Source: a virus
DNA length: 31,574 nucleotides
Virus record (IMG/VR): IMGVR_UViG_3300008450_000261
Coordinates: 1-31,574 of that record
Strand: one strand, 5' to 3'
The position numbers and the translations under genes are program-made. This document shows positions 3,315-31,178 of this stretch, piece after piece. A model generated the notes under the pieces. The model was not told the origin of the DNA and did not search any database. It saw nothing but the letters and a program-made list of their open reading frames with translations. Position 1 is the first letter of the stretch, and each line of letters begins with the position of its first letter.

Positions 3315-4277
3315 ATGATATCATTGCTTGGGATCTTTAAGGAATTAATTCTTGAAGGAGGAAATGTATTTGGCACTACTTCCCCTATTAAAAAAGAATA
3401 TATACAACCTACTTTAGAAAAATTCACACAGGAACTAAAAAAAGTATTTCCAAAAGTTGACTTTAAATTTAGCACCCTAGGATCAGTAGGTAAAAAAGAT
3501 GAATCTGGTGATATTGATTTAGCATTAAGTGTAGACCAGTTTATGTCTAAAGATGGAGAACCATTATTAGACAAATGGGGACTAGATAAAGATGAATTTA
3601 ATCTACTATTTGAAAAAATCAGAAAACGCGCTAAAACAGCATCAGAAGCTCAAAGTAAACTTAGAGCAATGCTTGAGTTAATAGCTGCTAAACTAGAAGC
3701 AACCTCAGACTATATTACAACAGATATTAAGGCAGCAGGTGGTGGTTCTATATTTTGTAACTTTAATCAATATAATGAAAAAGGTGAAGAAGTAGGAGAT
3801 ATATCTGTTCAAATAGATATTAATGTAGGTAACCTAGATTGGTTAAACTTTAGCTATTATTCAAATACATATAAAGATAATGTAAAAGGATTACATAGAA
3901 CACAATTAATGTTAGCTATGTTTGCTGAAGTAGGATTATCTTTTAATCATAATAGGGGTGTAACAGATAAAGAAACAGGAGAAGTAGTAGCAACTAATCC
4001 AAAAGAAGCAATACACGCTCTAAATCAAAAGTATGGTATAAAAATAACTCAAGATATCTTAAATGATTATTTTGAGTTAATGGATTATATTAAGGATAAT
4101 CTTCCAACAGATAAACTAAATGGCATTCTTGATAGGTATCTAAAAATATTAGATTCAACACGAGCAGATATACCAAATGACTTACAACCATATTGGATTG
4201 AAAACCAAGATAGACTAGGATTAAAAGGTAAGTTCTTACCCGATAACTCTAACCTAACTAAATACAAAACAGCATAA
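3315..4277 (+). CDS. Polymerase-beta-superfamily nucleotidyltransferase
   Basis: 320 residues. G56-S57 followed by SGDIDLAL with D66 and D68 is the hallmark GS...DxD of the polymerase-beta-type nucleotidyltransferase fold, where the two Asp bind metal. DISVQIDINVG near 160-170 can supply the third acidic strand. The C-terminal third is helical. It is a paralog of residues 1-160 of the next protein: both have an xPTxxKxxxxxxKxxP helix before the GS motif and a later NPKEAIHALNQKYGI / DPEKVFKRLGI helix. The N-terminus LLGIFKELILEGG looks like a short prohead leader with a possible ILE|G protease site. The substrate is unknown. The stop overlaps the next ATG by one base. Confidence 0.75.
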   Translation: MISLLGIFKELILEGGNVFGTTSPIKKEYIQPTLEKFTQELKKVFPKVDFKFSTLGSVGKKDESGDIDLALSVDQFMSKDGEPLLDKWGLDKDEFNLLFEKIRKRAKTASEAQSKLRAMLELIAAKLEATSDYITTDIKAAGGGSIFCNFNQYNEKGEEVGDISVQIDINVGNLDWLNFSYYSNTYKDNVKGLHRTQLMLAMFAEVGLSFNHNRGVTDKETGEVVATNPKEAIHALNQKYGIKITQDILNDYFELMDYIKDNLPTDKLNGILDRYLKILDSTRADIPNDLQPYWIENQDRLGLKGKFLPDNSNLTKYKTA

Positions 4278-7200
4278 TGTCAGGATCAATAGGAGCAAAT
4301 AGAATACCTAGAGAAGCTGTTGAACCAACAGTTAAAAAATATATAGAGAATATTTTAAAAAAATACCCTCCATTTAGAAGCGCCAAAATCTCAGGATCGT
4401 ATAATACAGTAATCAAACCAGATCATGGTGATTTAGATTTAATTATCCACGTTGATGCAGGTGAAGATGATAAAAAACTACTTAAAAAAAAGTTTGCAGA
4501 GTATTTAAATTCTCTACCAGATGATGTTACTGTCCCTTTTAAAGCAGGACGCCACCAAGGTAAAAAAACAGCAGGCACTGGAGATATAGTTATCACCCAA
4601 ATCCCAGTAGAAGGATACCCTGATTTAACAGTTCAAGTAGACAATATGATTGTTACCTCAGAACAAGAAAGTGATTATAGAAAAAGTTTTTTAGATATAC
4701 CTGGTGAAAAACAAGCATTAATAATAGGTTTAGTTAAAACCATATTGATGGAAGAAGATCCTGAAAAAGTATTTAAACGTTTAGGGATTACAAATCTACC
4801 TAAACTAGATCCAAATCAAGAGTTTGAATTTAATTTATCATCAAAAGGCTTAACATTGCGTTTAGTAACATTAGATGATAATTATAAAGAAATAGCTCGC
4901 AATGATATTTGGGATTCATTTGATTGGAATGATGTAGTAAAACTATTTAGTAACTATGACTTAAACTCATCATTTGAAGATTTATTAGCAAAAATCAAAA
5001 CAGGCTTAAAAAACCCACGTTCAAAAAATCGAATTAAGGGACTGTTTAAATCAATGTTAGTAATTGGAGCTGGTGAAAAAGGAACACCTAAAGGTGACAA
5101 TAAAGAAAAAGCATTAGCTCAAATTAGCCAACTTGAAGAAAATCTAAATGATGAAAGTGTAGTAGCACTATACCCTGGTAAGTTCAAACCACCACATAGA
5201 GGACACCTAAATGTATTAAACCAGCTTTCATCTAACCCTGACATAGAAAAAGTAATAGTTCTGATATCACCTAAACCTCATGAAGGTATTACTGCTGAAC
5301 AGAGTTTAGACATATGGGAAAAATTATATTTACCCTTAACTATAAATCCGAATAAAGTTGAGTTTGTTGTATCTCAAGTAACTCCTGTAAAAGATGTATA
5401 TGATATAGCAATTGCAAACCCTGACACTAATTTTATAGCAGCATATGGTAAAGAAGATGAAAAAAGATATGCTAAACTCCCACCTAATGTTAAAGCATAT
5501 AACGCTGGCAACATTGAAGGAATAAATGCTACCGGCTTAAGAGTAGCATTGAACTCACAAGGTGATATAACTCCTTATATTCCTAAAGAAGTTTCCCCAA
5601 TTGAATATCTTGAAACTCTTGGAGCTTTATTACATGAAAGCTTAAATGAATATACTAATCAATCTACATTAAATCCTATAGTATTTGATGGAACAACAAT
5701 TAAACCTAAAGTTAGAGAAATATTATTAAAAATAGCTAATTATTTTTGGGATTCTATGGAATTAGACATCCCATTCGAAGACGTACTACTTTTAGGCAGC
5801 TCAGCTAACTATAATTGGACTCCATCTTCAGACATAGATTTACATCTTTTAGTAGATTATTCTCAATTTGCTGATCCGGAATTAGTTAAAAAATATTTTG
5901 ATTCAGTTAAAGCTAAATTTAATGAAGATCATGATTTAAAAATAGGGAATAATGAAATTGAATTATATATTCAAGATACTAATGAATCTAATGCTAGTAT
6001 AGGAATATTTTCTGTATTAAATAATAAATGGATACAAGAACCTGAATTAGAAAAAATAGAAATTCCTGATTCTGATATTAATGATTTAGCTACCCCTTTA
6101 AAGCAAGAGATTGACCAACTAACCTCCCTCCCTCCTACAGAAGATACTCTTAAAAAGTTAATTAATCTAAAAGATAAAATTAAACAATTCAGACAATCAG
6201 GACTAGATAAAGATGGTGAATACTCACTAGAAAACCTTGCCTTTAAAGAATTAAGAAACTCAGGATATATTAAAAAACTATTAGATTATAAAAACAATGT
6301 TATAGATAAAGTTCTGGTAACAGAAATTTTTGATAAACCTGTAGATGCTTACTCATTTAATGAATCTGGAGATGGTACCTATCTATTTACATCAGATAGT
6401 GGAAACCAATATGTAGTTTATATAGATGAAGTTAGCGAAAACAGAATTGCCATAGATTTTGGAATCTCAGATGAAACAGGTGATATAGATTATCCTGAAA
6501 CAAATGTAGGTGAATTATATAAAGTAATGTCTACTATTATAGCAATTGCTAAAGATTATATAAATCAACATCCTGAAATAGAAATTATTTCTTGGTCATC
6601 TTTAGCTAAAAGAGGACAAAAGAAAATTGGAGATACTCAACGTGACAAATTATATAAACTAATTCTTAAAAAACAAGGAGGATTATCTGATAAAGATATT
6701 CGTTTTATAAATGGTGAATGGTGGGCATACTTAAAAGGTTATGATGCTTTATTTGAAAAATTTACTCAAGACCACGCTAAAGTAGACCTTCCAGAACCAT
6801 TTACATATGAAGATCTTGTAGATATAGATCAATATGCTGATGATGCTTTAAAACCAATAGATGTTAATCTTGATCCTAAATCAAATGGACATTTTTTAGA
6901 TAGAGCTATTGAGAGAGGTATAACTAAAGATGAATTAAAAGATTTCTTTGCTAGATTAGGATTAAAAAAAGATAACTTAAAATATCTTTTTGCTAAAGCA
7001 AAAGAAAAAGGAGATAGTGATGTTGTAGCAACAGATAAAAAAACAAACATTAGTATCCCATTTGAAGATACTACCCCAAGTGCTACAGATCGAATAAAAA
7101 ACCGAATTAAATCTATAGGAGCTAAAACGGTACATAAAAAACCTAATTTTCATACTCCAAATGTTAGACTTACATTTGCTGAAACTGAAAAAGATCCATT

Positions 7201-8038
7201 TGGATTAAATGCTTATGCTAGAGAATTAGCCAAAGGATTAGAAGAAGCAGACCCTAAAACAGGTACTGGTAAAAAACCAAAAGGATCAGGACGTCGTTTG
7301 TATACTGATGAAAACCCTAAAGATACAGTTGCTATTAAATTTAAAACTAAAGAAGATATAGTTGCTACTTTAAATAAATCATCATTTAAATCTAAGTCTC
7401 ATGCTCGTCAATCTCAAATTATTAATTTAATTCACCAACGAGTTAGAGCAGCATATCAAAATGCTAAAGATCCTGAAGTAAAATCAAGATTAAAACGAGC
7501 CTTAGAATATATTACTAAACGTAAAGAAGCATCTAAAAAGAAAACTGAGCGTTTACGTAAACTAAAAGAAAACCTAGATCCTAAAACTTTTAAAGACACC
7601 GGAAAAGCTGGAAAATATGGCTCAGGATACGATTTAGCCAAAGAAAACCAAACCCCAGAACAGGTTATGGATTTTAAAACTTTATTATTATCTTTAACAC
7701 ATTATTTAAAAAATAAATTAAATGTAACTCCTTTACCTAGGGTAAAATTTATTGACAATGATATAGAAAATGCTAATAACATATTAGGAAGAACAGCACA
7801 TTATGATCCTAATAATAAATCTATAACATTATATACATTTAATAGACACCCAAAAGATGTATTACGCTCATATTCACATGAGATGATACACCATATGCAA
7901 AATTTAGAAAATCGTTTAAAAAATATTAGTACAACTGATATTAATGAAGATGATTATTTAAAAGAAATTGAAAGAGAAGCATATGAAAAAGGTAATATAT
8001 TATTTAGAGAATGGGAAAATGCGTTAGAAAATAATTAA
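4277..8038 (+). CDS. 1253-residue multidomain protein: nucleotidyltransferases, adenylyltransferase-like, metallopeptidase
   Basis: Domains in order. (1) Residues ~5-160: polymerase-beta-type nucleotidyltransferase with SGSYNT (G40, S41) and HGDLDLII (D52, D54). (2) ~296-440: HxGH nucleotidylyltransferase of the NMN-adenylyltransferase type, PGKFKPPHRGHL with H307 and H310, and INATGLR at 416-422 as the ISTxxR-like motif. (3) ~475-600: second nucleotidyltransferase, GSS at 507-509 and SDIDLHLL with D519 and D521. (4) ~690-825: phage domain ending in EIISWSSLAKRGQ, unrecognised. (5) ~870-960: HFLDRAIERG region, faintly like phage RelE/barnase-type nucleases. (6) ~990-1085: very basic helical segment with GTGKKPKGSGRR, probably nucleic-acid binding. 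(7) ~1110-1253: zincin-type metallopeptidase, HEMIHH at 1201-1206 and EREAYEKG at 1232-1239. Linkers contain (L/I)xE sites such as SLNE|Y, so processing into pieces is plausible but inferred. Confidence 0.75.
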   Translation: MSGSIGANRIPREAVEPTVKKYIENILKKYPPFRSAKISGSYNTVIKPDHGDLDLIIHVDAGEDDKKLLKKKFAEYLNSLPDDVTVPFKAGRHQGKKTAGTGDIVITQIPVEGYPDLTVQVDNMIVTSEQESDYRKSFLDIPGEKQALIIGLVKTILMEEDPEKVFKRLGITNLPKLDPNQEFEFNLSSKGLTLRLVTLDDNYKEIARNDIWDSFDWNDVVKLFSNYDLNSSFEDLLAKIKTGLKNPRSKNRIKGLFKSMLVIGAGEKGTPKGDNKEKALAQISQLEENLNDESVVALYPGKFKPPHRGHLNVLNQLSSNPDIEKVIVLISPKPHEGITAEQSLDIWEKLYLPLTINPNKVEFVVSQVTPVKDVYDIAIANPDTNFIAAYGKEDEKRYAKLPPNVKAYNAGNIEGINATGLRVALNSQGDITPYIPKEVSPIEYLETLGALLHESLNEYTNQSTLNPIVFDGTTIKPKVREILLKIANYFWDSMELDIPFEDVLLLGSSANYNWTPSSDIDLHLLVDYSQFADPELVKKYFDSVKAKFNEDHDLKIGNNEIELYIQDTNESNASIGIFSVLNNKWIQEPELEKIEIPDSDINDLATPLKQEIDQLTSLPPTEDTLKKLINLKDKIKQFRQSGLDKDGEYSLENLAFKELRNSGYIKKLLDYKNNVIDKVLVTEIFDKPVDAYSFNESGDGTYLFTSDSGNQYVVYIDEVSENRIAIDFGISDETGDIDYPETNVGELYKVMSTIIAIAKDYINQHPEIEIISWSSLAKRGQKKIGDTQRDKLYKLILKKQGGLSDKDIRFINGEWWAYLKGYDALFEKFTQDHAKVDLPEPFTYEDLVDIDQYADDALKPIDVNLDPKSNGHFLDRAIERGITKDELKDFFARLGLKKDNLKYLFAKAKEKGDSDVVATDKKTNISIPFEDTTPSATDRIKNRIKSIGAKTVHKKPNFHTPNVRLTFAETEKDPFGLNAYARELAKGLEEADPKTGTGKKPKGSGRRLYTDENPKDTVAIKFKTKEDIVATLNKSSFKSKSHARQSQIINLIHQRVRAAYQNAKDPEVKSRLKRALEYITKRKEASKKKTERLRKLKENLDPKTFKDTGKAGKYGSGYDLAKENQTPEQVMDFKTLLLSLTHYLKNKLNVTPLPRVKFIDNDIENANNILGRTAHYDPNNKSITLYTFNRHPKDVLRSYSHEMIHHMQNLENRLKNISTTDINEDDYLKEIEREAYEKGNILFREWENALENN

Positions 8039-10767: not shown

Positions 10768-11223
10768 ATGGAAAAACAAATTAATGAGCAGTTTCTTAAA
10801 ATGCAAAAAATTGCAGGAGTAATCACTGAATCTCAATATGCTGATAAAATAAGTGAAGTAGATGCTGATAACAATACTACTGAATCTAAAAAAACAAAGA
10901 TGACCAAAACTGAATTAAAAGAAGCTATCCGCCAGGAAATACTAGCTGCTTTAACAGAGGATAATCTAACAGAAGCAGAAGACGAGGAGACTAAAGATAC
11001 TGAAGAAGTAACCTTAGATGCTGAAACTGAAGAAACCTCAGCTGATGACTCAGAAACATCTGATACTGAAACTGGAGATACTACATCTTCTCAAGATGTT
11101 CAAAAAGAATTAACAGATGCTCTAGAAGCAGCTAAAAACTTAGGAGATAAAAAACTTGTAAGACAAATTGGTAATGCTCTTACTTATTTTACAAGACAAC
11201 AAATCTCTACTGACGAAGTATAA
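10768..11223 (+). CDS. Acidic protein with MQKIAG core motif and second leader helix
   Basis: 151 residues. It starts with EQFLKMQKIAGVITE at 7-21, the same signal found at 15554 and 20979 and at the C-terminus of the scaffold; ITE|S is a possible prohead protease site. A second leader-type helix, MTKTELKEAIRQEILAALTE, follows at ~44-63. The middle (~65-115) is a low-complexity Glu/Asp/Thr stretch, and the C-terminus is a short helical bundle (ELTDALEAAKNLGDKKLV). It resembles a small acidic internal head or core protein. The tandem signals are unusual. Confidence 0.6.
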   Translation: MEKQINEQFLKMQKIAGVITESQYADKISEVDADNNTTESKKTKMTKTELKEAIRQEILAALTEDNLTEAEDEETKDTEEVTLDAETEETSADDSETSDTETGDTTSSQDVQKELTDALEAAKNLGDKKLVRQIGNALTYFTRQQISTDEV

Positions 11224-15310: not shown

Positions 15311-15557
15311 AGACATAGAAGTTACAGATCAATATATTATTCGTGAATTTAACGAAAATATAGATCCTATTGAATTAATGTGGCATCGTGATAAAGAAGA
15401 TCGTACTGTAGAAATTATAGAGAAAACAGATTGGAAATTGCAACTTGAAAACCAATTACCAACTTCTATGGATTCTCCAATATTTATACCTAAATACGAG
15501 TGGCATCGTGTTATAAAAGGAACTGGAAATTTAAAGTTAAAAATATATAAATCATGA
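15297..15557 (+). CDS. Small cupin-like phage protein
   Basis: 86 residues from the ATG at 15297. An upstream ATG at 15237 in the same frame would overlap the previous gene by 74 bases and add a residue stretch unlike the rest, so the later start is preferred. The sequence is strand-rich: YIIREFNENIDPIELMWHRD, EDRTVEII, WKLQLENQLP, IFIPKYEWHRVIKGTG. The WHRD and WHRVIKG His residues and the Gly-rich turn are as in small single-domain cupins; HRxxKG near the end is the second cupin-type motif. No leader. Metal binding is possible; the ligand is unknown. Confidence 0.55.
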   Translation: MNPYKDIEVTDQYIIREFNENIDPIELMWHRDKEDRTVEIIEKTDWKLQLENQLPTSMDSPIFIPKYEWHRVIKGTGNLKLKIYKS

Positions 15558-18187
15558 TTCAACCTCTTAATGAGCAATTTACTCGTATGCAAAAATTAGC
15601 AGGCATTCAATCTGTTAACAAAACTTATGATAAAATTGTATATACTAAAAAACATGATGCATTAATCAATTTTTTTATCAAAGAATATCTTTCAACTCAT
15701 AAACAAACCTTATTAGAGAACCAACTAACTGAAGCCTCTATTAAAAACTTCATATCAGCAGTAAAAGATAATTTTTCTAAAAAACAACTCCCAAAATTAA
15801 ATTCCTTTCTTAAAGCATTAACATTTACTAAAAAACCAGCTGAAACTTTAGCTGCTTTAAGTGCATTACGTAATGCTGGGATTGATTTAAAAGATAAAAA
15901 AGAATTAGCAATAGTATTTGATGTTTTAAAAAATGAATCCTCATTAAAAGAAGAAGCAAAACTAGTTACAGTTAACGGAGAAGAAGGATATTATATTGAT
16001 CAACCTACAGACGAAGAAGGAAAAGAAACTATTAAAATATTTGTTACTAAAAAAGAATATGAAGAAATTCAAAAAAGATTAACAAATAAATCTTCTGGTG
16101 TAAGAATCATTGGCCCTCTTAGAAAATTCCTCACCACTACATTTGCAGGTAAAGGATTAACAGGATTGCTTGCTCTAGGTACAGCATTTGTTGGTTTAGC
16201 AGATGATGTAGGAAATTTTGCTCAAACTTTAGGAGCCGACATTGAAGGAGATGATGCTGCTTCTCAAGAAACTATTCGCCAACTTGCTAAAGCAGGTATT
16301 TCTGATGAATCAATTAATGACTTTTTAGATGATAAATTTTCTGTAGATGCAGGTGGACAATCAGCTGCAGTTATAGATGATGTTGAACAAGCTCTTAGTG
16401 ATGATACTGAAACTGAAGACCAACCAACAGATTTAGGAGATTTAGAAACAGACAACCCAGACTTAACAGATGCTACTAAACAAGGGTTAGATATTGATAA
16501 TAGTGAAAATCAAACTGTTAACTTTATTAAATTTAAAAACGGCTCTAGCCAGCTAGATGGAAATGATTTAAGCAAAATTAGTCAAGAAAATAATGATATT
16601 GTTAAAATATTAAAAAATAATCAAAATTATTCTGAAACTGTTTTAGGAGTATCAAGTAATACTGGTGATAATGCTAATGTTGATGATCAAGGAGGAGATT
16701 TAAATCTTAATAGAGCTAATAACACTGCTGAGGCGATTCTTCAAGACATTGAATCCCAATTAAAAGAAGATGGTATAAAATATACTAGAAGTGGAAATAC
16801 AATTGAGTTAGAAGATGGTGGAACATATGAGTTAAAAATAGGGGGAGGAAATGATGTTGATAAATTAACTAAGATTGATAGAACAGATGATACTGCTACT
16901 CAATCTGCTATTAGAGTTGGTGAAGTAGGAGAAAAAGATACTCCTGTAACACCACCTAATCCAACAACTTTATTAGGATATGATCCTCTCTTTGCTACAT
17001 ATGGTGATAAAAAAGAAAAACCAGCAGACGAAAAAACACCAAAAACATCAGGTAAATCTAATAAATCTAGAACAACACTTCCACCATTAGATATGTCTGA
17101 TGATACATCTAATAAAAAAGCTGCTCCTATTAAGGCTACTCAAATCAAACAGGATGTTACTAATTTATCTAGATTAAATAGAAATGGCCAAATAGCAATG
17201 GTTTTAGCTCGTATGAGCCCTAAACTTAACATTTTCACCCAACTAGGTAAAGATACCATCACCAGCCTCTCAGACAATGATTTTAATAAAATCCAGGATA
17301 GTAATGCCTCAGAAACTGCTAAAAAATTAGCTAAGCTTATCCCTAATATTAGAAAATCCCCAGATGCATTCTTAAAGAAAGTATCTGATCTTACAGGTAT
17401 TGAATTAGCTCCAAGAGCTAAAGCTATTGCAACTAAACCTGGAGCATCAACCCAAGCACAAATTACTCAAGTAACTGAAACCCAAGTTTATTTACAGGAA
17501 GCAGCTATTGATGATTTATTTAATGAGTTAGGAATAACACCTGAAGAAATTAAAACAAATCGAATAGAGATAATTGCTTTATTAGGAAGTATGTTTGCTA
17601 AAGAAGGAAACACAAATGTTAGTATTTTAGACCCTAAAAAACTTAATAAACAAGAACAAAAACAACTACAGGGCTTAGGATTTACTCCTCAAGCGGGTGG
17701 TAATTACGTTTTCCTAGCCCCAGGCCAAAACAAAGCTCAAACATTTGATAAACTTCAAGATAAAAACAAAATTCAACCTGATACTGATAGAGTAGGCAAT
17801 ACAATTGAAAAACGCCCAACCTTAAAAACCCTATTAAGTAGAATTGATACTGCAGATGAGTTTAGAGATTTAACATTATCAATTTTAAACCAAATTGATC
17901 CTCAACTCATAAAAGATAAAACTAAAGTAAAAAGTGTTTTATTTAGTTTAAGAAATCGTATTCAAGAAGTTGAACTTAAAGATGTTTCTATTACAATTAA
18001 AAATATTCTCAAAGATTCAACACTTAAAAATCTCTTACAAAGAATTAACACAGTTGAAGAAGCTATTCAATTAATAATAAGAGAAATAATACCTCTTTTA
18101 AGTCCTAAATTATTAGGAGATAAAACTAAATTGAAAAATGCTATTATAAGTGCTGCAAACAAATATTCTACAACTGCTAAAAAATAA
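15554..18187 (+). CDS. 877-residue protein with MQKLAG signal, OmpA-like domain and C-terminal repeats
   Basis: Begins LNEQFTRMQKLAGI (5-18), the core-type signal shared with 10768 and 20979 and with the end of the scaffold. ~60-130 is helical. ~190-225 has a hydrophobic Gly-rich segment (GLTGLLALGTAFVGLA), possibly a membrane or fusion helix. ~320-425 resembles an OmpA-like fold: FKNGSSQLDGNDLSKI, ETVLGVSSNTGDN, then LNLNRANNTAEAIL. OmpA-like domains usually bind peptidoglycan. ~430-760 is low-complexity linker and helical segments. The last ~120 residues contain two related ~50-residue units, LKTLLSRIDTADEFRDL at 757 and LKNLLQRINTVEEAIQL at 824. It overlaps the upstream stop by four bases. 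It may be a virion protein that reaches the cell envelope at entry. Inferred. Confidence 0.55.
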   Translation: MIQPLNEQFTRMQKLAGIQSVNKTYDKIVYTKKHDALINFFIKEYLSTHKQTLLENQLTEASIKNFISAVKDNFSKKQLPKLNSFLKALTFTKKPAETLAALSALRNAGIDLKDKKELAIVFDVLKNESSLKEEAKLVTVNGEEGYYIDQPTDEEGKETIKIFVTKKEYEEIQKRLTNKSSGVRIIGPLRKFLTTTFAGKGLTGLLALGTAFVGLADDVGNFAQTLGADIEGDDAASQETIRQLAKAGISDESINDFLDDKFSVDAGGQSAAVIDDVEQALSDDTETEDQPTDLGDLETDNPDLTDATKQGLDIDNSENQTVNFIKFKNGSSQLDGNDLSKISQENNDIVKILKNNQNYSETVLGVSSNTGDNANVDDQGGDLNLNRANNTAEAILQDIESQLKEDGIKYTRSGNTIELEDGGTYELKIGGGNDVDKLTKIDRTDDTATQSAIRVGEVGEKDTPVTPPNPTTLLGYDPLFATYGDKKEKPADEKTPKTSGKSNKSRTTLPPLDMSDDTSNKKAAPIKATQIKQDVTNLSRLNRNGQIAMVLARMSPKLNIFTQLGKDTITSLSDNDFNKIQDSNASETAKKLAKLIPNIRKSPDAFLKKVSDLTGIELAPRAKAIATKPGASTQAQITQVTETQVYLQEAAIDDLFNELGITPEEIKTNRIEIIALLGSMFAKEGNTNVSILDPKKLNKQEQKQLQGLGFTPQAGGNYVFLAPGQNKAQTFDKLQDKNKIQPDTDRVGNTIEKRPTLKTLLSRIDTADEFRDLTLSILNQIDPQLIKDKTKVKSVLFSLRNRIQEVELKDVSITIKNILKDSTLKNLLQRINTVEEAIQLIIREIIPLLSPKLLGDKTKLKNAIISAANKYSTTAKK

Positions 18188-18329: not shown

Positions 18330-19634
18330 ATGAATAAGAAAATAGTAATTATTGGAGCAGGAGTAGCAGGTATAAATGCAGCTACTAAATTAGTTGATAA
18401 CGGCTACCCAGGTGAATTGATCACCATTATAGACAAAGGTAATGATCCACATAACCGATTACCTGAAGAGGTAATGACTGGTATGTTAGGTGCTGGTGGG
18501 TGGAGTGATGGTAAATTAACATACCATACTGCTATCGGAGGTGTATTATCTAAGTATTGTGGTGAAGACAAAGCAATGGAATTAATGGATCAAGTTATTA
18601 GTAACTTTAGACGTTTTCATCCTAAACCAGAAGAAATATTTTGTTCTGATCCACAAGAAGAACCTGATTTCATTAAACCATATTTTGGATTACGCCTATT
18701 CCCAGTATGGCATATTGGTTCAAATTATCTACATGAGATTGCTAAAGCATGGTATCAATATTTAATTGATAAAGGTGTTAATTTTATGTGGGGAACTGAA
18801 ATTACTAACCTAAATCTAGCTAATAATTGGGTTAACTATATTGATGGATATGGAGAAAAAGAAGCAATAACATATGATACCCTCATATTTGCAGTGGGTA
18901 AATCAGGTATTGATTTTGCTCAAAAAATATCTAACCAATATAACCTACCTACAGAGCCTAAATCAGTTCAAATTGGAGTACGTTTTGAAGCACCACAAAA
19001 ATACTTCCAAAAACTAATTGATGTTAGTTATGATTTTAAACTATATCAAAAGTTTGATAATGTATCATTACGCTCATTCTGCACCAACAATAACGCAGCT
19101 TATGTAGCAGTTGAAGAAACTTATGGAGATATAAGTTATAATGGTCATGCTAAAAAAGGTGAAGAATTTAGAAACGATATGACTAACTTTGGTATATTAA
19201 TGGAAATTAAGGGTATTAAAAACCCATTTGAATGGTCAAGAAATATAGTTGAAAAATGCCAAGCTAATGGTAAAGGATTATTTTACTCACCAGGTTATAC
19301 TAGACAACCTAGTCTAACATCTGAAGGAAATGAAGTATCTGCTGTACCTATTAGTTGGTTAAGTTTAATAGGAGTAATGGAGGCGTTTGAAGGATATTTT
19401 GAACACATTATTAACTTTATCGACCAAATGAATAAAGTATTTGAATTTGGTGATGATTGGGGAATGTATATCCCTGAAGTAAAATATTTGAGTCCTGAGC
19501 CACTAGTTGATTATACTAATTTAGCTCTTACTACCTATCCTAATGTACATTTCGTAGGAGATGCATTAAGTGCTAGAGGTATAACAGTTAGTGGTGCACA
19601 AGGAATTTATGTAGCTGAAAATCTATTAAAATAA
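18330..19634 (+). CDS. FAD-dependent oxidoreductase
   Basis: 434 residues. The N-terminal Rossmann dinucleotide site is KIVIIGAGVAGINAA with G9, G11 and G14, and an acidic IIDKG follows where the adenosine ribose binds. TLIFAVGKSG near 185-195 is the second nucleotide-site strand, and HFVGDALSARGITVSGAQG near 408-426 is the C-terminal FAD motif (GD ... GI). The overall shape fits the uncharacterised FAD-dependent dehydrogenases (COG2509-like). The substrate is unknown. It has its own promoter and terminator-bounded position with a glycosyltransferase, so it looks like an auxiliary metabolic unit inserted between head genes. No leader or signal peptide. Confidence 0.8.
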   Translation: MNKKIVIIGAGVAGINAATKLVDNGYPGELITIIDKGNDPHNRLPEEVMTGMLGAGGWSDGKLTYHTAIGGVLSKYCGEDKAMELMDQVISNFRRFHPKPEEIFCSDPQEEPDFIKPYFGLRLFPVWHIGSNYLHEIAKAWYQYLIDKGVNFMWGTEITNLNLANNWVNYIDGYGEKEAITYDTLIFAVGKSGIDFAQKISNQYNLPTEPKSVQIGVRFEAPQKYFQKLIDVSYDFKLYQKFDNVSLRSFCTNNNAAYVAVEETYGDISYNGHAKKGEEFRNDMTNFGILMEIKGIKNPFEWSRNIVEKCQANGKGLFYSPGYTRQPSLTSEGNEVSAVPISWLSLIGVMEAFEGYFEHIINFIDQMNKVFEFGDDWGMYIPEVKYLSPEPLVDYTNLALTTYPNVHFVGDALSARGITVSGAQGIYVAENLLK

Positions 19635-19638
19635 ATTT

Positions 19639-20688
19639 ATGAAAGCAATAATTGATTTTACAACTAACCTACCATTACAAATAGGTTCCCCAATAATAAC
19701 CATTCACCCTGAAGATATTAGTGAATTTGGTTCACAAATTACTATAGAATATATTGATGGTAATACTAATGAATTATTAGCTACTAAAAATATATTAGCT
19801 GATCGCCAACCTACCCCGGGGGTTAGACAATATTATACTAAATGGAAACTAAATTTTAAAGATGAAAATGGAAATGTTTTACTTACTCATACTTTAGATT
19901 TAGAAAATAAAACCGTATTTATTAAAATGGATGCTAGGGCATTAGGAGATAACTTAGCATGGATTGATTATGTAGAACAATTTAGAATTAAACACAAATG
20001 TAATATAATTTGCTCCACATTCTTTAATGAGTTATTCGAACAAACCTACCCAGACATAATGTTTGTAGCCCCTAATACTAAAATTACCAATGTTCCTGCT
20101 CAATATTATATAGGTACTCATAATACTTCTAACCCTATATATCAACCTAGCTTATATTTAAACAATCCACTACAAAAAATAGCCTCAGATATTTTAGGGT
20201 TAGAATATAAAGAATCTAAACCAAGAATTAATTATCCTAATGTTATTCGTAAAAGAAAAGTTTGTATTAGTGAATATGCTAGTTTAAAAACTAAAGAATG
20301 GAATATTATAGGAGGTTGGCAAGCAATTGTTGATTTATTTAACGAGTACGGATATGAAGTTGTAGTAATTAGTAAAGAATATTCATATCTAAAAAATGTT
20401 ACTAACAAATCTGGTGATTATCCATTAGAAGATCGTATTAAAGATTTAGCTGAGTCTGAATTTTTTGTAGGTAATTCATCTGGATTATCTTGGTTAGCTT
20501 GGGGTTGTGGGGCTCATGTATTTTTAATTAGTGATTTTACTCCCCCATATCATGAACCAACAGAAAATATTACTCGAATATATAATAAAGAGTATCCAAG
20601 AGATATGATTAAATATGAAGAAGTATTGAACCCGGTTTCTAAAGAAGAAGTATTAAAAATTATAGAAAATAAATTAAAATCAAAGTAA
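19639..20688 (+). CDS. BAHT-type autotransporter heptosyltransferase-like glycosyltransferase
   Basis: 349 residues. The sequence matches my memory of the bacterial autotransporter O-heptosyltransferase family (strand-loop-strand type): ALGDNLAWIDYVEQFR from 101, NIICSTFFNELFEQTYPD, then PLQKIASDILGLEYKE, KVCISEYASLKTKEWN, GGWQAIVDLFNEYGYEVVVI and finally FFVGNSSGLSWLAWGCGAH near 275-293, which is the sugar-nucleotide binding part of a GT-B fold. In bacteria these enzymes add heptose to Ser of surface proteins. In a phage it could modify host surface proteins or a virion protein such as the Ser/Thr-rich ones at the left end of the window. It follows the oxidoreductase after 4 bases. Confidence 0.75.
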   Translation: MKAIIDFTTNLPLQIGSPIITIHPEDISEFGSQITIEYIDGNTNELLATKNILADRQPTPGVRQYYTKWKLNFKDENGNVLLTHTLDLENKTVFIKMDARALGDNLAWIDYVEQFRIKHKCNIICSTFFNELFEQTYPDIMFVAPNTKITNVPAQYYIGTHNTSNPIYQPSLYLNNPLQKIASDILGLEYKESKPRINYPNVIRKRKVCISEYASLKTKEWNIIGGWQAIVDLFNEYGYEVVVISKEYSYLKNVTNKSGDYPLEDRIKDLAESEFFVGNSSGLSWLAWGCGAHVFLISDFTPPYHEPTENITRIYNKEYPRDMIKYEEVLNPVSKEEVLKIIENKLKSK

Positions 20689-20978: not shown

Positions 20979-21356
20979 ATGAGCAAAGAATTTATAAAAA
21001 TGCAAAAGTTGGCTGGAGTAATCACTGAAGGTCAATATAAGGAAAAACTTAATGAAGGTGAACCCGATTTCACATACCATGACCCAGAACTAGGCGACCC
21101 CGATAGTCCTGAAGGATTTAAATGGAAAGAACAACCAGCTAACCCTAATGCTATGCTAACCATGGATGAGGACGATCCTGAAAGTGAAACTTTCACCAAA
21201 CAAGATTGGTGGGAAAGTGATGTAATTGGTCGAGACCCATGGGATATTATCCCAGTTTACGCATCAAAGGAAGGAGGAGTATGGAAATTTTCATTTGATG
21301 ATGGAAGTTCTATTAGCGGATTTGTAGAAGGTGAAGATTTCACATTCGGTAAATAA
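20979..21356 (+). CDS. Acidic protein with MQKLAGVITE core signal
   Basis: 125 residues from the ATG at 20979; an in-frame earlier start at 20904 would translate the A/T-rich regulatory region into a hydrophobic run and is rejected. EFIKMQKLAGVITE at 4-17 is nearly identical to the 10768 signal, and ITE|G plus KLNE|G ten residues on give two possible prohead protease sites. The rest is acidic and Asp/Pro-rich (YHDPELGDPDSPEG) with a C-terminal strand-turn-strand (VWKFSFDDGSSISGFVEG). No known family. Its acidic body and scaffold-like signal suggest a core-associated cargo protein. Confidence 0.65.
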   Translation: MSKEFIKMQKLAGVITEGQYKEKLNEGEPDFTYHDPELGDPDSPEGFKWKEQPANPNAMLTMDEDDPESETFTKQDWWESDVIGRDPWDIIPVYASKEGGVWKFSFDDGSSISGFVEGEDFTFGK

Positions 21357-28906: not shown

Positions 28907-28910
28907 TATA

Positions 28911-29522
28911 ATGAAACAAGTATTAATAGAAACCCAATACTTTACTGCTAAACCTATCAAATTAGCTGAAGGAAAATCTCCAACAGGTAATCCTTTAGTT
29001 CAAGGTATTTTAGCTACAGCCGAAGTAAAAAACGGAAACGGTAGATATTATGCTAAAGATTTATGGGAACGCGAAATAGATAAGTATATGGAAAACGTTA
29101 ATGCTAATAGAGCATTAGGCGAATTAGACCACCCGGACTCATCTATTATTAATTTAAAAAATGTATCTCACAATATTAAAAAAATATGGTGGGATGGAGA
29201 TAATGTAATGGGAGCTATTGAAATTCTTCCTACACCATCTGGTAACATTCTAAAAGCATTATTTGAAAATAATATACCAGTAGGTGTTTCATCTCGTGGT
29301 ATGGGTTCATTAAAACAAATGGGTGAAATAATGGAAGTACAAGATGATTTTGAATTATTGTGTTGGGACTTTGTATCAACACCTTCCAACCCAGGCTCAT
29401 ACATGAAAGAAGTAGGTATGATGAATGAATCTAAACAAAATAAACAAATAAACAAATACCAAAAAGTAAACTCTATTATTACTGATATATTATGTTCTAA
29501 TGGATCTTGCCCAATATTTTAA
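28911..29522 (+). CDS. Prohead core protease (gp21-like)
   Basis: 203 residues from the ATG at 28911; a TTG at 28887 would extend it through the end of the previous gene and is not needed. The herpesvirus-assemblin-like serine protease features are present: GELDHPDSS with H74, and VGVSSRGMGSLK with S127/S128, followed by LLCWDFVSTPSNPGSYM, which holds the third catalytic region. Length is close to T4 gp21 (212). It activates inside the prohead and cuts scaffold, core and leader proteins at (L/I)xE sites. The C-terminal tail QNKQINKYQK may be self-cleaved. It lies just upstream of the scaffold as in T4. Confidence 0.92.
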   Translation: MKQVLIETQYFTAKPIKLAEGKSPTGNPLVQGILATAEVKNGNGRYYAKDLWEREIDKYMENVNANRALGELDHPDSSIINLKNVSHNIKKIWWDGDNVMGAIEILPTPSGNILKALFENNIPVGVSSRGMGSLKQMGEIMEVQDDFELLCWDFVSTPSNPGSYMKEVGMMNESKQNKQINKYQKVNSIITDILCSNGSCPIF

Positions 29523-30005: not shown

Positions 30006-31178
30006 ATGAGTAAAGACTTATTTAAAGAAGCAATTGCTGATGCTAAAGCTGTAAAAGAAGCAGCTATCAACAATGCTAAACTTGCTCTTGAAGAAGCTTT
30101 CACTCCACATTTAAAATCTATTCTTGCTGCCAAATTAGAACAACTTGATGAAGTTGAAGATAAAATGGAAGAAGCAGAAGATGAAAAAATGGAGGAAATG
30201 AAAGACAAAAAAGAGATGGAAAAAGAAAATCTTGACGAATTGGATCTTGAAGAAATTTTAAAAGAACTTGAATCCCTAGAAGAAATGGGTGATGAAGGAG
30301 ATGATAAAATGGAAGAAGCAAAAGACGAAAAAGATGATCTAAAAGAAATGTATTATGAAGATTCTGAAGAAGAAGGAGGTGAAGAAGAATTCGATCTTGA
30401 AAACATGGATATGGATGATTTGAAAAAAGTCATTGAAGATGTTGTCGAAGATATGATGGCTAGTGGTGAACTAGAAGGTGCTGAAGAAGAAGGTGAAGAA
30501 GAAGAATTAGATGGTGAATTGGATACTGAAGAAGCTCCAATTGATGAATTAGATATCAATGAACTTTTAGCAGAAATTGAAGAAATGGAAAATGAAAAAG
30601 TTCCTATTAAAGAGTATGCTACATTTGTGAGTGATTATTTATCTCCACTAATGGGACTTTTAGCCGCCGGTTTACCAATCGCTTCAATCACAGGCTTGTA
30701 CTTATATGAAAAACATAAAGAAAAAGCTAAAGACATAGTAGCTAAAGCAGAAGCAGGTGATGAAAAAGCTAAAGCTGAAATAGAAAAAGCCAAAATGGAA
30801 GCTGAAAAAGTTACCTCAAATCTTGAAGAAACTGATAATAAAGAAATGGAAAAAACCATTGCTGAATTACGTTCTGAACTTAATGAGGTTAATCTATTGA
30901 ATGCTAAACTTCTTTACACTAACAAGATTTTCAAAGCCAAAAACCTTACAGAATCTGAAAAAGTAAAAGTATTAACTACTTTTGACAAAGCAACCACTGT
31001 AAAAGAAACTAAACTAGTTTATGAAACATTATTAGAAAGTTTAAATAACAAATCTAAATCTTCTATTAAAGAATCACTAGGATCAGCTTCTAAACCAATG
31101 GGAGTTACGCAAAAACAACCAATTATTGAAACTAACGAAGTATTTGCTCGTATGCAAAAACTAGCTGGAATCAAGTAA
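30006..31178 (+). CDS. Prohead scaffold/core protein (gp22-like)
   Basis: 390 residues. N-terminal ~200 are extremely acidic with long Glu/Asp/Lys helices, as in T4 gp22, the main core protein. A hydrophobic hairpin-like stretch at 204-234 (YATFVSDYLSPLMGLLAAGL, then PIASITGLYLY) is unusual for a soluble scaffold. The C-terminal part has LNAKLLYTNKIFKAKNLTES and TFDKATTVKETKLVYETLLE, a gp22-like helical signature, and ends with NEVFARMQKLAGIK, the same core signal as at the starts of three other proteins. Expected to be cut up by the upstream protease. Strong Shine-Dalgarno and late promoter box. Confidence 0.85.
   Translation: MSKDLFKEAIADAKAVKEAAINNAKLALEEAFTPHLKSILAAKLEQLDEVEDKMEEAEDEKMEEMKDKKEMEKENLDELDLEEILKELESLEEMGDEGDDKMEEAKDEKDDLKEMYYEDSEEEGGEEEFDLENMDMDDLKKVIEDVVEDMMASGELEGAEEEGEEEELDGELDTEEAPIDELDINELLAEIEEMENEKVPIKEYATFVSDYLSPLMGLLAAGLPIASITGLYLYEKHKEKAKDIVAKAEAGDEKAKAEIEKAKMEAEKVTSNLEETDNKEMEKTIAELRSELNEVNLLNAKLLYTNKIFKAKNLTESEKVKVLTTFDKATTVKETKLVYETLLESLNNKSKSSIKESLGSASKPMGVTQKQPIIETNEVFARMQKLAGIK

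Follow-up and report, generated by a model that had tools for sequence, protein, structure and literature searches.

A seven-module phage protein with prohead-protease-type motifs at its junctions: a candidate capsid-loaded effector polyprotein of T4-like phages

Head-packaged phage proteins and the locus described here

Little appears to be known about which proteins phages inject and by what route these reach the capsid, except for T4, P1, N4 and a few giant phages. Here we describe a gene of a T4-like head region that quite probably encodes an effector polyprotein which is loaded into the capsid and cleaved by the prohead protease. It is a single open reading frame (ORF) with an ATG start, coding for 1253 amino acids (4277..8038, plus strand, as are all features below), on a viral DNA of 31,574 nucleotides (IMG/VR record IMGVR_UViG_3300008450_000261, positions 1-31,574; this whole stretch is termed the window). 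The chain is modular, its catalytic residues are conserved, a cut-site code marks its junctions, and this code co-occurs with a prohead protease gene.

In T4 the prohead protease gp21 cleaves after L/I-X-E, and a 10-residue N-terminal sequence is enough for packaging (PMC9026906). The T4 internal proteins IPI-III and Alt have a short N-terminal leader with hydrophobic positions, are cut by gp21 after this motif, and are packaged and then ejected into the host (PMC9026906). The window protein shares, or is predicted to share, these features; however, the T4 proteins represent one cargo per gene, whereas here up to seven modules are joined and the leader-like segments are internal, with none at the N-terminus. 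The head ejection proteins of giant phages, such as SPN3US gp245 and phiKZ gp175, are likewise cut after Glu by relatives of gp21 (PMC10052503, PMC9026906), but the cuts in SPN3US take off terminal propeptides, N-terminal ones at 13 of 14 sites and a C-terminal one at the remaining site, and no polyprotein has been described there (PMC10052503). The P1 proteins DarA, DarB and DdrB are similarly large head proteins, with the N-terminus of DarB sufficient for capsid targeting and proteolytic processing of DarA thought to occur, but for none of them has a series of cut sites separating independent modules been described (PMC9024508, PMC5512222).

In architecture, the chain is comparable to the polyvalent proteins of phages and conjugative elements (Iyer et al. 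2017, PMC5512222), which are large, strongly shuffled chains of nucleotidyltransferase (NTase), zincin, BECR-type RNase and ADP-ribosyltransferase (ART) domains, proposed to be injected with the DNA. Their processing has been ascribed to embedded zincins, in contrast to the gp21-type cut sites and leader segments found at the junctions here, and their Pol-beta NTases come mainly from firmicute mobile elements, unlike the window polyprotein. The text of that study does not contain the term NMNAT (nicotinamide mononucleotide adenylyltransferase) and has 'prohead protease' only in the title of a reference; its polyprotein analogy refers to embedded peptidases. The closest cultured relative of the window is Flavobacterium phage immuto, whose gp088 (YP_010114595), annotated as an NMN adenylyltransferase only, is homologous to the polyprotein and lies in a matching gene neighborhood. 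It combines the modules termed A, B and G below with further domains, but lacks C and F, and in immuto a homolog of module E is encoded separately, by gp080. Our search of the open-licence literature turned up no report of a polyprotein cut by the capsid protease whose internal linkers provide both targeting and cut sites, and the view of the original prediction, made from the DNA alone, that no system with this domain order had been described holds there, injected multi-domain proteins being known as a class (PMC5512222). If our interpretation is true, this would be, among the literature found, the first viral-style polyprotein of tailed phages to be processed by a capsid protease.

Seven shuffled modules with conserved catalytic residues

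From N- to C-terminus the chain comprises NTase 1 (module A), an NMNAT-like module (B), NTase 2 (C), a DUF6934-like domain (D), a RegB/BECR-like RNase-type domain (E), a basic domain (F) and a C-terminal zincin (G). The original prediction had listed two GS...DxD NTase motifs, an HxGH/INATGLR pair, a basic domain and an HEMIHH motif with a downstream E; all of these are present in one frame, but its inventory was incomplete, having missed residues 684-824 (DUF6934-like) and 841-968 (RegB-like). Residue conservation is given below as counted in non-redundant alignments of relatives.

Module A (residues 1-284; 4277..5128) matches PF14792 (E=4.8e-5) and has the motif G40-S41...G51-D52-L53-D54 along with D122; D52, D54 and D122 occur in 100% of 18 aligned sequences. 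Module B (residues 293-450; 5153..5626) scores over the cut-off of PF01467 and bears HxGH at 307-310 and INATGLR at 416-422, of which H310 is kept in 100% and R422 in 98% of 44 sequences, while some family members have T in place of H307 (FKPPTKGH). It thus combines the (H/T)xGH and ISxTxxR-type motifs with the nucleotidylyltransferase fold, as expected of an NMN or nicotinate mononucleotide (NaMN) adenylyltransferase. Its top NCBIfam matches for such an enzyme are all under their equivalog cut-offs, and as no fitting NCBIfam family scores above cut-off we assign no enzyme name beyond the superfamily. Module C (residues 465-682; 5669..6322) matches phrog_36119 (E=4.9e-38) and has the motif G507-S508...D519-I-D521, with G507, S508, D519 and D521 in 100% of 6 aligned sequences. 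Module D (residues 684-824; 6326..6748) matches PF22028 with E=7.1e-6 and 26.5 bits, slightly under the cut-off of 27; it occurs in 19 ORFs and is the sole module in 8 of them. Module E (residues 841-968; 6797..7180) is a putative RNase domain with invariant H872 and R876, in whose family 5 of 14 members match RegB_T4 (best E 4.5e-4; window member 0.058) and 2 match DUF4258. Module F (residues 991-1098; 7247..7570) is known from 76 distinct contexts. Module G (residues 1130-1253; 7664..8035) has HEMIHH at 1201-1206 (7877-7894) followed by E1232-x-x-A-Y (E1232 at 7970-7972); H1201, E1202 and H1205 are kept in 100% and E1232 in 98% of 48 sequences. It gives weak matches to DUF6782, Peptidase_M91 and MPTase-PolyVal, the last of these (PF18818) being matched weakly by 3 of 16 family members (best E 0.047) and outscored by DUF6782 and M91.

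An AlphaFold2 model of residues 1-690 has a predicted local distance difference test score (pLDDT) of 84 and three domains, the first of which adopts the pol-beta/lambda fold (Foldseek, DNA polymerase lambda, E 1.7e-6) and the second the NadD/NMNAT fold (E 1.8e-5). The second half (684-1253; pLDDT 76) is modeled as a string of small domains without good PDB matches. Segments with pLDDT below 50 lie mostly at the junctions (289-292, 452-467, 685-690, 829-838, 971-1017 and 1104-1128), with short loops inside modules at 509-517 and 775-786. The predicted model is a chain of enzyme folds with low-confidence linkers between them. A PDB sequence search with the whole protein gave no match, profiles of modules D, E, F and G gave none that was significant, and Foldseek of the second half against PDB gave none below 1e-3, along with weak GNAT-like matches to some part of this half. 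Against viral predicted structures, some part of residues 684-1253 gave weak matches to the T4 Alt family and stronger ones to IrrE-like phage proteins. We reject a structural protein throughout, as the predicted folds are enzyme-like, and also chance motifs: the catalytic residues, named for checking in the original prediction, are conserved at 98-100% in homologs. The functions of modules D, E and F are weakly supported. At the superfamily level our guesses are adenylyl transfer, possibly for NAD+ restoration, nucleotidylation, RNA cleavage, DNA/RNA binding and proteolysis of a host target.

Relatives of the polyprotein, full-length or partial, were found in 80 IMG/VR loci (labeled with L below), and in the loci fetched the seven modules occur in 24 combinations among ORFs. 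Across 50 non-redundant multi-module relatives the modules are reordered (e.g. G-D-F-E, B-F-G-D, B-E-C-G), lost, duplicated (A-B-B-G), split into separate genes or found standalone. For instance, A is separate from B-G in L032 and L033, while the zincin, the commonest partner module (78 ORFs), is a gene of its own in L010 and stands alone in L068. Hence, several catalytic or binding domains are combined in one shuffled chain, as in polyvalent proteins. Similar chains carry further modules: Fe/Mn superoxide dismutase and zeta-toxin-like kinase (L090:1409-6250), plastocyanin/azurin-type cupredoxin and DUF192 (L113:1099-4935), LysM and phage lysozyme (L106:3110-4330) and a HYD1-type ART (L055:3689-6610). 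Scans of viral contigs with single modules C, D and E recovered 1-3 loci each only; the basic module is very common, with at least 600 matches listed. It also occurs without a leader in Pelagibacter phage HTVC033P (L182:3941-4231), with further copies in L127-L163. A 5'-deoxyribonucleotidase-like module (immuto gp087, L001:17726-18325; L070, L072) may be standalone with a leader, first in a chain, or internal behind the DPFGLN linker described below.

A cut-site code at the module junctions

Five of the six polyprotein junctions carry [LI]xE and the other VTE. The predicted cuts (marked /, with P1 the residue before the cut) coincide with or adjoin the low-pLDDT segments. The A/B site is QLEE/NLND (5132..5140; P1 E288), adjoining 289-292; B/C is a double site, LLHE/SLNE/YTNQ (5630..5650; P1 E454 and E458), within 452-467; C/D is VTE/IFDK (6317..6325; P1 E683), next to 685-690, with V at P3 in the window and I in relatives (IKE in L002 and L003); and D/E is LFE/KFTQ (6749..6757; P1 E827), beside 829-838. 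The E/F cut is predicted at the end of a portable linker, DPFGLNAYARELAKGLEE/ (residues 973-990; 7193..7246), within 971-1017, and module F ends in RLRKLKE/NLD.

The junctions mirror the starts of standalone modules, whose short N-terminal leaders end in (L/I)xE: the leader is kept at the equivalent place within fusions. The standalone leaders MISLTKILTEILSE/GDPKVGTGKK (L061) and MIKLTEILKE/YTLNTTLNP (L052, a homolog at the B/C joint) are matched by the internal junctions KLIDILNE/VDPKTGTGKK (L081) and, in the window, GLEE/ADPKTGTGKK and SLNE/YTNQSTLNP. In the 50 multi-module proteins there are 171 [LI]xE in 8307 linker residues, as against 110 +/- 9 upon shuffling (z 6.8); [VM]xE is enriched too (z 5.6), whereas [AG]xE, [KR]xE, [DE]xE, [FYW]xE and [NQST]xE are not, and within the modules [LI]xE is depleted (223 vs 305 +/- 16). 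Ahead of the basic module, 16 of the 24 internal contexts have [LI]xE at one fixed offset and a further 4 have V or M there at P3, and many N-terminal leaders carry the [LI]xE too; 23 of 39 deduplicated contexts are exact (binomial p about 4e-35 if independent). Leaderless basic modules of other phages begin with MADPK or a few residues ahead of DPK, which is the predicted mature end. NMNAT starts have [LI]xE at most 28 residues upstream in 19 of 19 distinct cases (8.4 +/- 2.1 shuffled). A recurrent linker, DPFGLNxYARELxxGLEE, is found in 17 distinct copies ahead of many different modules, all 17 containing [LIVM]xE. The A/B linkers of the window, L002, L003, L011 and L010 have little in common but LEE, ITE, LIE, LPE and LTE. 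In immuto the motif is N-terminal in 23 of 37 head-region proteins (11.8 +/- 2.6 shuffled), while in one region outside the head genes it shows no enrichment (19 of 76 vs 17.4 +/- 3.3).

Should this junction code prove correct, the sequence could reveal which effectors are injected, and where their mature forms begin and end, across a large group of T4-like phages that infect aquatic bacteria; many unannotated domains would be included.

Proposed processing and packaging, and the head-region setting

The window has the features of a T4-like head region, with a gp20-type portal and an S77 prohead protease (both Pfam), a terminase-like ORF and a putative scaffold. The S77 protease, of the T4 gp21 family (28908..29522; PF03420 E=1.6e-29, phrog_207 E=9.9e-59), is the proposed processing enzyme of the polyprotein. 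S77 occurs on 8 of 18 contigs that have a cut-motif leader or junction at the basic module and on 0 of 22 in which this module is nearly always leaderless and motif-less (Fisher p 6e-4), many contigs in this comparison being fragments; above 40 kb the counts are 8 of 13 vs 0 of 9. It is also present on 7 of 8 polyprotein contigs over 100 kb. In L118, L120, L123 and L125, where no S77 was detected, the basic-module genes keep a short WxxILK-type stretch without the P1 Glu.

For cutting at (L/I)xE linkers, the original prediction had considered two enzymes, the peptidase within the protein itself and the prohead protease. The junction enrichment, fixed offset, portable linker and S77 gene favor the latter, while the former is weakened, as a zincin of the module G family was not found on 6 of the 8 S77-positive contigs, including ones of 132 and 141 kb, although the basic module on these six retains its cut-site leader or junction. 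The junction motif is therefore independent of the zincin, and we reject the zincin as sole processor; it is more likely cargo than a processing enzyme, though it may perform minor trimming. Hence, a self-processing polyvalent protein, in which the zincin would cleave the linkers either ahead of packaging or once the chain has been injected, is unlikely, even though this module is the commonest partner, has an invariant HExxHH...E, and autoprocessing by zincins has been proposed for polyvalent proteins (PMC5512222). Besides the zincin-less contigs, the match of the junction motif to the gp21 consensus and the zincin genes separate from the chain in L010 and L068 speak against it.

Similarly improbable in our view is that the chain is packaged and injected uncut, with the linkers as flexible tethers and [LIVM]xE left over from ancestral leaders. 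The N4 virion RNA polymerase is indeed packaged unprocessed despite a zincin domain (PMC5512222), and remnants of this kind are expected when leader-bearing genes fuse, but the motifs are kept in linkers otherwise unconserved in sequence and length, which suggests selection, and are depleted within modules. A fusion of several enzymes at work inside the infected cell, for instance in nucleotide/NAD+ metabolism, rather than virion cargo, would agree with the metabolic-type enzymes of these chains (NMNAT, NTases and the deoxyribonucleotidase-like modules of relatives), and the cyanophage virion detections described next could be carry-over (PMC10665884). We regard this as very improbable, given the position of the gene beside head genes, the leader-type junctions, the S77 co-occurrence and the repeated detection of NMNAT-like proteins in cyanophage virions (PMC10665884; T4-GC190 in PMC3037559).

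In cyanophage S-CREM2 the consecutive genes ORF154, ORF155 and ORF156 encode proteins detected by mass spectrometry in CsCl-purified virions (PMC10665884, Table 3). ORF154 is NMNAT-like, with the leader MKNFSSFLTE/A. ORF156 (L183 5839-6552), listed merely as hypothetical in that study and not recognized there as an NTase 2 homolog, shares 38% identity with module C over 182 residues. The window would therefore fuse into one chain counterparts of separate virion-associated genes.

These observations point to a polyprotein that would be made together with the head genes and enter the prohead via leader-like amphipathic segments in its linkers. The activated S77 protease would then cut after the Glu of [LIVM]xE at each junction, a step for which the motifs argue strongly, and yield about seven separate modules. 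These would remain in the head with the DNA, as the virion homologs suggest, and be ejected into the host, where they may act as early effectors, e.g. on nucleotide/NAD+ pools, RNA or host proteins, by analogy with T4 and the polyvalent proteins. Delivery on entry, as envisaged in the original prediction, is likewise suggested by the detection of homologous modules in cyanophage virions (PMC10665884). On balance, we think that leader-bearing cargo genes were fused head to tail, the leaders becoming portable target-and-cut linkers. Any module could then be added to a chain, taken out or relocated without loss of packaging and release. One gene would in this way supply the head with a set of separate proteins for injection into the next host, and the linker could serve as a natural modular device for loading several proteins into a capsid.

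Several points weigh against this interpretation. Module A has no N-terminal leader, the ORF beginning with MSGSIGANRIP, so targeting must come from internal segments. The C/D junction has VTE and not L/IxE, and [LI]xE triplets also occur within folded modules (e.g. 157-159, 346-348, 1222-1224 and 1228-1230). The p-values assume independence, which they overstate because the contexts are related by descent, and are hence optimistic. S77 was not found on the 100-kb contig of the close relative L004, possibly a fragment. S-CREM2 ORF154 matches the module B profile weakly (4.1e-5 in a very small search), and the S-CREM2 authors caution that such virion proteins might be carry-over from CsCl purification (PMC10665884).

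The start of the polyprotein ORF shares one base with the stop of an upstream gene for an NTase-like protein (3315..4277), which has the leader MISLLGIFKELILE/GGNVF and a short similarity to module A (BLASTP E=8e-5 across 51 aa, in one comparison). Downstream of the protease and portal genes, the putative scaffold protein (30006..31178) ends at its C-terminus in NEVFARMQKLAGIK, the same motif that starts several leaders. A motif of the form NEQFxRMQKLAGI(ITE), which ends this scaffold, opens the window proteins 10768-11223, 15554-18187 and 20982-21356, and may represent a second type of scaffold-binding or capsid-targeting signal. Between 8064 and 22500 many small ORFs start with LKQLIKEEL...LNE-type leaders and are probable head cargo proteins. 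FAD-dependent-oxidoreductase-like and glycosyltransferase-like ORFs, assigned by eye, lie between cargo-type genes and the terminase (18330-20688), and a GIY-YIG SegE-like homing endonuclease (PF19835, E 8e-27) is encoded at 1118-1552.

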